Shown: positions 38,961 through 42,241 of the stretch, piece by piece | Layout: each line of letters opens with the position of its first letter | Numbering within the stretch: the first letter of the stretch is position 1 | Source: a bacterium | Lineage (GTDB): Bacteria > Bacillota > Clostridia > Christensenellales > SUG1161 | DNA length: 44,438 nucleotides | Assembly: GCA_029006015.1 (NCBI GenBank) | Contig: JAQXFY010000047.1 | Location: forward strand, 1-44,438 | Direction of reading: 5' to 3' | Program-made: the position numbers and the translations under genes | Notes under the pieces: model-generated | What the model saw: only the letters and a program-made list of their open reading frames with translations | What the model was told of the DNA's origin: nothing | The model's database searches: none

Positions 38961-39797
38961 CTACGGCGTTTTGCGTTTAAGCATTTTGGCCAAAAAGAAA
39001 GCTGCCGCAAAGCCCGCCGCCATCAACAGCAGGTATATTCCCTGTGCCCAACCGGCCGAAAAACCGGGCAGCACCAGCGCTGCGGATACCAGTAAAAAGC
39101 CCAGCACCCCATAATAGGCATAGCCGTGAAAGCGATTAAACGCCCAGCGCACCAACACAATTAAAAGCGCGGCGCATCCTGCAAAGCCCACCCCCATACA
39201 GGCCAGGGCCATCATATCCATATGCGAGATGGCGTGCAATACGGCCCCGTACCACCCCAGGTACATCAAAATAAAGGAGGTGGAAAGGCCGGGAATAATC
39301 ATACCCGCAGCGATAATGGCGCCCGCCAGGATGGCCTGGGGCCACAGCAGCGGCATGGCGCCCCCACCCGGTTCGGGGGCATTATTTTCCAGCAGCAAAA
39401 GCAGCAACGCCAGCCCTGCGCCGGCGGCGGCAGCCACCAGGTACGGCCATTTAAAGCCGTTTTGGTTGGCTTCCCTGATAAAATCCGGGATACCGCCCGC
39501 TACCAACCCCACAAACAGATAGAGCATGGCCGCCTCGAAGCGCGCGATGACATATTCCAGCACCGTGGCGCCGCACAAAAGCCCGATCACCCCACCGATG
39601 CCGATGGGCAGCAAAAACAAAAAACTGCGTTTTGGCGTTTTAAACAAGCCGGCAACGGCATCCAGCATGGGCCGGTACAACCCAAAGCTGACAGCCATCA
39701 CCCCGCCGCTGACACCGGGCAGGATACATCCCAGCCCGATCAGCATCCCCGCGGCAGCCTTTTGGGCAACATTAACAAAGCAAGCCCCTTTACCCAT
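38961..39797 (-). CDS. DUF368 family membrane protein (polyprenyl-phosphate transporter PopT-like)
   Basis: GMLIGLGCILPGVSGGVMAVSFGLYRPMLDAV; GMIIPGLSTSFILMYLG. Confidence 0.85.
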   Translation of the reverse strand: MGKGACFVNVAQKAAAGMLIGLGCILPGVSGGVMAVSFGLYRPMLDAVAGLFKTPKRSFLFLLPIGIGGVIGLLCGATVLEYVIARFEAAMLYLFVGLVAGGIPDFIREANQNGFKWPYLVAAAAGAGLALLLLLLENNAPEPGGGAMPLLWPQAILAGAIIAAGMIIPGLSTSFILMYLGWYGAVLHAISHMDMMALACMGVGFAGCAALLIVLVRWAFNRFHGYAYYGVLGFLLVSAALVLPGFSAGWAQGIYLLLMAAGFAAAFFLAKMLKRKTP

Positions 39798-39800
39798 AGC

Positions 39801-40430
39801 TTATGTATTTTTCATAATGACGCTTGCAATGATATCCGCCACATCCTCGCACGCATCAAAGCACAATTCAAAGCCATCAAAAACATGTTGCCAGATCATG
39901 ATGGTACGGACATCGTTTTCCTGGGCAAATAACCGGCGAATAGCCTGGGCATGCAGCCCATCCCCATGGCTTTCCAGGGTATTCACCTCGATAATCATAT
40001 CCTTAATGGTTTTAGAGGAGCGGAAGTTGCGAAACTCCCGTACCGCGCGCCCCAGGGCATCGCAGCAGGCGATAATGCCCCGGGTAAAGTCCAACGCCTC
40101 CGATGGGATGGCTGCAGCATTGAACATAAACACATGCTGCATAACATCATCGATGGCATCGACCACATTATCCAGTTCCTGCGCCAGGGCGATCAAATCC
40201 TCCCGCTCGATGGGGGGAATAAATTCGCGCGCCAGTTTTTCAAGCATTTCGTGCCGGTTAGCATCGGCGGCATGCTCGATCTGGTGCATTTGATGGGTTT
40301 TTTCCTCAACCTCCTCCTGCCGGAATGCCGATAGCGATGCATCCAGCAGCGCAGCCGCCTGGCAGGCATAGGAAGCGCTGGTTTCCAAATAGCCAAAGTA
40401 ATCCGTTGTTTTCTGGGATTTATGTTTCAT
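39801..40430 (-). CDS. DUF47 family phosphate-transport accessory protein
   Basis: EHAADANRHEMLEKLAREFIPPIEREDLIALAQELDNVVDAIDDV. Confidence 0.9.
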   Translation of the reverse strand: MKHKSQKTTDYFGYLETSASYACQAAALLDASLSAFRQEEVEEKTHQMHQIEHAADANRHEMLEKLAREFIPPIEREDLIALAQELDNVVDAIDDVMQHVFMFNAAAIPSEALDFTRGIIACCDALGRAVREFRNFRSSKTIKDMIIEVNTLESHGDGLHAQAIRRLFAQENDVRTIMIWQHVFDGFELCFDACEDVADIIASVIMKNT

Positions 40431-40442
40431 GGGTCAACCCTC

Positions 40443-41495
40443 CTAAAAAATCAGCATAAACAGCTTGGCCATTCCATAGCCCAGCAGCCCGCATCCAGGA
40501 AACGTCAGCACCCAGGCCAGCGTCATGTCCTTGACGATGCCCCAATTGACCGCCGACAGCCGTTTGGATGCACCCACGCCCATGATGGCGGTGGTTTTGG
40601 TATGGGTGGTGCTGACGGGGATGCCGGTAATTGAGGATAGCAGCAAACACAGCGCGCCGCCCATATCCGCCGCAAAGCCCTGGTAGGGTTCCAGCTTAAC
40701 CATATTCATTCCCACCGATTTGATGATACGATAGCCACCAATGGAGGTTCCCAGCGCCATCACCACCGAGCATAGCAGCATCAGCCAGATCGGGATCGCA
40801 AACTGGGTCACCTCACCCTGGCCGGAAGCCAGAAAAATGCCCAGCAAGAAAACGCTCATAAACTTTTGCCCATCCTGTGCGCCATGCATAAAAGCCATTG
40901 CCGCGCCGCCAAACACCTGAGCCCCTTTAAAATACGGGATGGTTTTACGCCGGTCCGCTTTGCGAAAGATGGCCTCAATGCATCGGGCGGAAAGAAACCC
41001 CAACCCAAAGCCCAGCACCGTGGACAGCACTAGGCCATAGATGACTTTGATCCATTCCATCGGGTTGATACCGCCCACCCCGCCATGCAGGGCGATGGCT
41101 GCGCCGGACAGCCCGGCAATGAGCGCATGGCTTTCGCTGGTTGGGATGCCAAAGCGCCATGCTGCCGTGGCCCAAACTACGATGGCAAACAGCGCCGCAC
41201 ACAGCGCCACCGTAGCCTCCCCCGTGTTTTGGCCAAAATCAACCATGTTATAGATGGTCATGGCCACCTTGGAGTTAATCAGCGTCATCACCAGAACGCC
41301 TAAAAAATTCAGAATAGCCGACATCACGATAGCCGGTGCCGGCCGCATGGCCCGGGTGGATACACAGGTTGCAATGGCGTTTGGGGCATCCGTCCATCCA
41401 TTTACCAGGATGACCCCCAGCGTCAGCACCACGGTGACGGCCAGCAACGGGTTGGTAACCAGCTTTTCCAGGAACGTGCCAAAGTCCATGCTCAT
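40443..41495 (-). CDS. Inorganic phosphate transporter, PiT family
   Basis: VNGWTDAPNAIATCVSTRAMRP; GIPTSESHALIAGLSGAAIA; GAQDGQKFMSVF; GIPVSTTHTKTTAIMGVG. Confidence 0.92.
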   Translation of the reverse strand: MSMDFGTFLEKLVTNPLLAVTVVLTLGVILVNGWTDAPNAIATCVSTRAMRPAPAIVMSAILNFLGVLVMTLINSKVAMTIYNMVDFGQNTGEATVALCAALFAIVVWATAAWRFGIPTSESHALIAGLSGAAIALHGGVGGINPMEWIKVIYGLVLSTVLGFGLGFLSARCIEAIFRKADRRKTIPYFKGAQVFGGAAMAFMHGAQDGQKFMSVFLLGIFLASGQGEVTQFAIPIWLMLLCSVVMALGTSIGGYRIIKSVGMNMVKLEPYQGFAADMGGALCLLLSSITGIPVSTTHTKTTAIMGVGASKRLSAVNWGIVKDMTLAWVLTFPGCGLLGYGMAKLFMLIF

Positions 41496-41551
41496 GTTTT
41501 CATTCAATCCCCCTATCCTTTGCAGTATACATAAACCTATGGCCAGGGCAT

Positions 41552-41592
41552 AAAAAAGAAAAACGACAGAACCCATCCCATGGGCCCTGTCG
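41552..41592 (-). terminator. Intrinsic terminator/attenuator in the PiT leader
   Basis: Minus strand CGACAGGGCCCAT-GGG-ATGGGTTCTGTCG followed by TTTTTCTTTTTT. Confidence 0.75.
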
Positions 41593-41652
41593 CTAACGAT
41601 ATAACGCAGCCTGTAGATATCGGCAATTCCCGAATATACATACAGCTTTCAC
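41593..41652 (-). CDS. Candidate 19-aa leader peptide (MKAVCIFGNCRYLQAALYR)
   Basis: GTG start 5 nt after TGGAGG; TAG stop directly abuts the terminator hairpin; not in the ORF track. Confidence 0.45.
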   Translation of the reverse strand: MKAVCIFGNCRYLQAALYR

Positions 41653-41725
41653 AAAAACCTCCAATAAGCACAACGCCCCACGGCGGTTTTACGATAAACA
41701 CAACCCCTTATCTTCAGCCAGGCGC

Positions 41726-41769
41726 ATTGTAGCATATTAACCGGCCGGGCGCAAGCCAGGCGGCCGGTT
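41726..41769 (-). promoter_or_regulatory. Putative promoter overlapped by an inverted repeat
   Basis: Minus strand TTGCGC-N17-TACAAT with extended TGC; AACCGGCCG-N13-CGGCCGGTT (41739-41769) flanks the -35. Confidence 0.5.
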
Positions 41770-41861
41770 GTTGCTCCGCTGCGCTTTTTCCCATGCTGCG
41801 GGCTTGCATTTTTTAAAAACGGTAACACCCTATTTCTTTCCATATGCCGTTATCTTTATTC

Positions 41862-41926: not shown

Positions 41927-42241
41927 TCAGCAGCCGCAACCGCATCCATTCATGCCCATACCCATGCCACAACCGCAGCCGTTGTTGCAGCCGCAGCCGC
42001 CAAAGCCGTTGGTGATGGCCAGCAGGGCCAGCAACCACACCAGGCAGTCGGAATGCAGGCCAAAGCAGTTCAGGCCATTGCCGCAGCCACAGCCGTTGTT
42101 GCAGCCGCCCATACGGGCTTCGCCATTTTCGCAACCGCAGCCGCAACCATTGTTGCAGCCGCAGCCGTTATTGCAGCCGCCCAGGCCGCCCAGCAGGATG
42201 ATGAGCCACAACAGGGAGCAACCATTATTGCCGCAGAACAT
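41927..42241 (-). CDS. Cys/Gly/Asn-rich repeat protein with two hydrophobic segments
   Basis: 104 aa, 20 Cys, NNGCGC repeats; SD GGAGG 9 nt upstream of ATG; terminator downstream. Confidence 0.65.
   Translation of the reverse strand: MFCGNNGCSLLWLIILLGGLGGCNNGCGCNNGCGCGCENGEARMGGCNNGCGCGNGLNCFGLHSDCLVWLLALLAITNGFGGCGCNNGCGCGMGMGMNGCGCGC

Follow-up and report, generated by a model that had tools for sequence, protein, structure and literature searches.

The PiT operon and its upstream region

The locus described here comes from an uncultured bacterium (lineage Clostridia; Christensenellales; SUG1161) and lies on contig JAQXFY010000047.1 of assembly GCA_029006015.1, positions 1 to 44,438 of which make up the window analysed. 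A PiT phosphate transporter, a DUF47/PhoU-like protein and a DUF368/PopT-like undecaprenyl phosphate translocase are encoded in a single close-packed operon on the minus strand (Table 1). On this strand, the operon is preceded by a gene for a repetitive Cys/Gly/Asn-rich protein (without a match in Pfam and NCBIfam searches), the terminator of this gene, a palindrome with promoter P1, an SD, a 19-codon open reading frame (ORF), a hairpin and a T tract, in that order. All of the sequence features claimed in the first-pass annotation of this DNA were found in place when the minus-strand letters were checked. An alternative start codon for PiT is available at TTG 41507. In addition, a 3-codon ORF, AGGGGG-N5-ATGAAAACATGA (41514-41492, minus strand), has a stop codon that overlaps the PiT ATG (ATGA), and its SD spacing is better than that of PiT itself.

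Table 1. Features of the PiT operon and of the DNA upstream of it (positions in the window)
Feature	Position	Strand	Details
Cys/Gly/Asn-rich repetitive 104-aa protein	41927-42241	-	CNNGCGC repeats
Terminator of the Cys/Gly-rich gene	~41903-41862	-	Strong hairpin
Inverted repeat over the -35 region	41739..41769	-	AACCGGCCG-N13-CGGCCGGTT; arms 41769-41761 and 41747-41739; possible operator
Promoter P1	41726..41754	-	TTGCGC (41754-41749), 17-nt spacer, TACAAT (41731-41726); extended -10 TATGC; score 10
Predicted SD-holding hairpin	41654..41690	-	AAAACC.GCC / GG.GGUUUU; -11.1 kcal/mol
19-codon ORF	41593..41652	-	MKAVCIFGNCRYLQAALYR; GTG start, TGGAGG-N5; TAG 41595-41593
Intrinsic terminator	41552..41592	-	13-bp stem (arms 41592-41580 / 41576-41564, two G.U pairs), loop GGG, T tract TTTTTCTTTTTT (41563-41552); -22.7 kcal/mol
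Candidate local -10, weak	41524..41529	-	TATACT; score 8
PiT phosphate transporter	40443..41495	-	Pfam PHO4, PF01384; ATG at 41495 by ortholog comparison
DUF47/PhoU-like protein	39801..40430	-	PF01865
DUF368/PopT-like undecaprenyl phosphate translocase	38961..39797	-	PF04018

From promoter P1 to the terminator hairpin

P1 is the only promoter in the intergenic region to stand above chance, its score being matched by 0.03% of shuffles; this bears out the -35 and -10 elements given in the first-pass annotation, which had missed the extended -10. The inverted repeat described around the -35, with 13 nt between its arms, is likewise present; no other inverted repeat within 41480-41860 reaches 9 nt. 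No second perfect copy of this palindrome was found in the organism's own genome. Sites with up to three mismatches (15 versus 6 in the control) look like terminator hairpins or chance matches, and a role as a genome-wide operator was rejected on the grounds that there is one perfect site and that the mismatched sites include terminator-like hairpins. The two near-identical direct repeats reported earlier, GTTGTGTTTAT (41704) and GTTGTGCTTAT (41674), do occur 30 nt apart, but chance alone would give about 0.4 near-matches of this kind over a region this long (a rough estimate), and they were rejected as regulator boxes. A 64-codon ORF (41843-41649, minus strand), probably a chance frame, spans P1 and ends in a TGA overlapping the GTG of the 19-codon ORF.

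The terminator hairpin is clearly above chance (z -6.46 versus shuffles). As had been claimed, its 13-bp stem is in direct contact with the TAG of the ORF, giving a stop-to-stem gap of zero, and PiT follows closely, with 56 nt between the T tract and the ATG (about 60 nt in the first estimate). It is not the end of the upstream Cys/Gly-rich gene, since that gene already has a terminator of its own. The zero gap is exceptional and unlike the usual arrangement of gene and terminator in this genome: for 58 terminators located up to 80 nt after ORFs of at least 100 codons in 1.0 Mb (half the genome), the gap was at least 14 nt in 56 cases and 3 nt or less in none. In pooled low-GC clostridial loci, a small sample, it was below 12 nt in 6 of 12. 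The presence of a terminator before a gene was rejected as proof of attenuation, because half the genome contains 13 unassigned sites of this type and geometry alone is indecisive; Rfam accounts for a TPP riboswitch locus only. Two tandem TPP riboswitch aptamers are found at L164:7228-7479 (minus strand), before a hydroxyethylthiazole kinase-like gene (the gene was judged by eye).

Promoter, leader, intrinsic terminator and structural gene thus lie in the order expected of an attenuator, on one strand, and at the level of predicted elements the presence of a promoter and a terminator in this order can be considered established. As P1 is the sole supported promoter and a strong terminator separates it from PiT, readthrough is the simplest source of operon transcripts, and we infer that PiT is read from P1. 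The interpretation we tentatively favour is that the 275 nt from the palindrome to PiT form a leader for PiT-DUF47-PopT, in which P1 leads into an intrinsic terminator and readthrough sets the expression of the operon. Transcription would start at about 41719, most transcripts would stop at the terminator (41592-41552) and the fraction reading through would determine PiT-DUF47-PopT expression; the palindrome over the -35 may act as an operator controlling initiation, and a candidate control of readthrough is a ribosome that, at the stop codon of the 19-codon ORF, would occlude the 5' arm of the stem. We prefer a transcription-attenuating leader because the promoter-terminator-PiT order with its zero gap is real, and unusual for the genome.

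A possible, if somewhat unlikely, alternative is that P1 and the terminator delimit a free-standing RNA of about 165 nt (perhaps regulatory, perhaps peptide-coding), PiT being transcribed from the weak TATACT at 41529. The promoter and the strong terminator do constitute a complete unit, and TATACT (41529-41524) would leave PiT with an SD and a leader of about 22 nt; the possibility of such a weak local promoter, raised in the first-pass annotation, also counts against the leader interpretation. TATACT is, however, no better than shuffles, 36% of which score as high, and the ORF, taken as an ordinary gene, would stand alone in the sampled half of the genome in having a zero stop-to-stem gap.

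The 19-codon ORF and the leader fold

The ORF opens as first described (TGGAGG-N5-GTG, 41652-41593), with a GTG start and a good, well-spaced SD, and the succession of promoter, SD, ORF and terminator matches that of an ordinary small gene followed by a terminator of its own. It differs from such a gene in its zero stop-to-stem gap and in its non-coding-like codon usage. With 725 long ORFs from about half of the genome as a reference, its relative adaptiveness is 0.34, versus 0.68 for genes and a mean of 0.39 for shuffled leader DNA, from which its codon usage is indistinguishable; 99.7% of gene windows score higher, as do 98% of gene starts. Of its 18 codons, 8 are rare, versus 2.0 on average. 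Neither the 106 other PiT leaders nor the 391 class genomes yielded a homolog, and the peptide has no amino-acid run and no evident link to phosphate. The ORF has neither the coding-like codon usage nor the conserved peptide of a small protein gene, and is either not a gene or, like that of bmrB, a slow leader. Its codon usage argues against a peptide-coding version of the free-standing RNA and, together with the lack of a phosphate link, against the leader interpretation.

Codon usage like that of shuffled DNA would suit a chance frame placed before a terminator that acts as a fixed leaky brake, or that is an evolutionary leftover, and that lowers PiT without regulation. This explanation, which we consider unlikely, is consistent with the singleton status of the arrangement and with a leader fold that, except for the terminator, is like that of shuffles. 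In 46 of 3000 shuffled leaders (1.5%), an SD-led ORF of at least 8 codons stopped no more than 3 nt from the hairpin, a modest result for a pattern noticed by inspection; exact abutment was rarer (12 of 3000, or 0.4%) and, with the good, well-spaced SD, it speaks against a chance frame, just as a strong promoter running straight into a strong terminator would be wasteful without regulation. The abutment of ORF and hairpin is nevertheless only suggestive, being weakly above chance and found by looking.

Upstream of the terminator hairpin, the leader has no excess of structure over shuffles (z +0.38). An antiterminator pairing GGGUU.UGUU of the leader with the 5' arm (GACA.GGCCC) was rejected, as 194 of 1000 shuffles were equally stable; the mutually exclusive antiterminator helix of a trpL/bmrB-type attenuator was not found in the leader, and no riboswitch or Rfam cis-regulator matched it above threshold. 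With an antiterminator no better than shuffles and a fold at this z value, no switch or sensor is visible, and both results weigh against the leader interpretation. The predicted hairpin holding the SD, which had not been listed in the earlier annotation, is not unusual either (25 of 200 shuffles were equally stable). As no competing helix was found, any regulation of readthrough would be left to ribosome occlusion or a protein factor.

Relatives, coupling and known attenuators

The comparison with relatives covered 80 clostridial and 29 order-level PiT loci, with 106 other non-redundant leaders, none of which has a promoter-terminator-PiT arrangement of this kind. A search of 391 class genomes with the leader DNA returned matches of chance length only, and no repeat copies were found elsewhere in the organism's own genome. 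A conserved PiT-operon leader was rejected on the basis of its absence from these leaders and class genomes, an absence that counts against the leader interpretation; the free-standing RNA and its peptide are equally devoid of relatives. The first-pass annotation had named the lack of the ORF and hairpin in orthologous leaders as a refutation of its idea, and neither is present there; since the nearest PiT orthologs compared are at most 80% identical and belong to other families, this removes support for attenuation rather than disproving it. Judged from sequence comparison at the available resolution, the arrangement is lineage-restricted. A scorable promoter lies within 150 nt of PiT in 80 of the 106 other leaders, a space occupied here by the hairpin. 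In the few orthologs with a terminator up to 160 nt before PiT, a promoter then follows, in keeping with the idea of a free-standing RNA, and these terminators look like the ends of preceding genes.

Coupling between transcription and translation matters here, because control by ribosomes requires it. A short stop-to-stem distance serves as one indicator of runaway transcription (Johnson et al., 2020, as reviewed in PMC7858274), and purine-rich coding strands as another (PMC13323073). With its long gaps and a low coding purine fraction of 0.504 (coding strands not purine-rich; about 1.0 Mb sampled, L124-L223 plus the window), the genome looks coupled by both. A terminating ribosome could, thus, interfere with a hairpin at its stop codon, and coupling and the zero gap together provide the best, albeit indirect, support for the attenuation idea, the samples from relatives being small. 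Rho is present in the genome. An apparently coupled genome in Bacillota is unlike the rule assumed for the phylum.

The bmrB-bmrCD leader of Bacillus subtilis has a similar short rare-codon ORF, an intrinsic terminator at the 3' end and membrane transporter genes downstream, and replacing the rare codons of the bmrB leader ORF, which is rich in them, lowered expression past the terminator (PMC4191407). In bmrB, the terminator lies within the ORF, a competing antiterminator is predicted and the cargo is a drug (PMC4191407), whereas in the PiT leader the stop codon precedes the hairpin, an antiterminator was not seen and the cargo is phosphate. The vmlR leader of B. subtilis resembles the PiT leader in having a uORF, in its first stem-loop, followed by an intrinsic terminator upstream of the coding gene (PMC9226507). 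vmlR is also characterized by a tripeptide uORF, by antiterminator and anti-antiterminator helices, by NusG pause sites and by its conservation in Bacilli (PMC9226507), none of which was found at the PiT leader. By analogy with bmrB or vmlR, the PiT leader may function in the manner of a ribosome-mediated attenuator.

Ribosome-dependent attenuation is a special case of the leader interpretation, not an addition to it: a ribosome paused on the rare-codon ORF, or at its end, would cover the 5' arm and allow the polymerase to reach PiT. The zero gap, the SD-led ORF with its rare codons, the apparent coupling of the genome by two proxies and the outline shared with bmrB and vmlR argue for this mechanism, which we nevertheless regard as distinctly doubtful, given the lack of homologs, antiterminator and sensor codons and the unsupported translation of the ORF. 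That ribosomes on the ORF decide readthrough is speculative. Of the attenuation layout first proposed, the P1-terminator-PiT order and the zero gap have held up; the absence of ORF relatives, the shuffled-like codons and the lack of an antiterminator tell against it. It is very improbable that, in a coupled lineage and with no antiterminator, a stop codon abutting the terminator would alone decide PiT transcription, through ribosome release versus pausing.

Regulated readthrough would provide an example of RNA-level control for a PiT-type phosphate transporter, for which none was found in searches limited to open-access literature, and occlusion at the stop codon would be a simple attenuator design. 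If unregulated, the arrangement would be an ordinary short transcript or a leaky terminator ahead of a transporter gene. As for the operon itself, only a few of 108 other loci (L010/L088, L049, L111) have PopT in the vicinity of PiT, sometimes upstream, which suggests that phosphate uptake and the recycling of the lipid carrier are occasionally linked.
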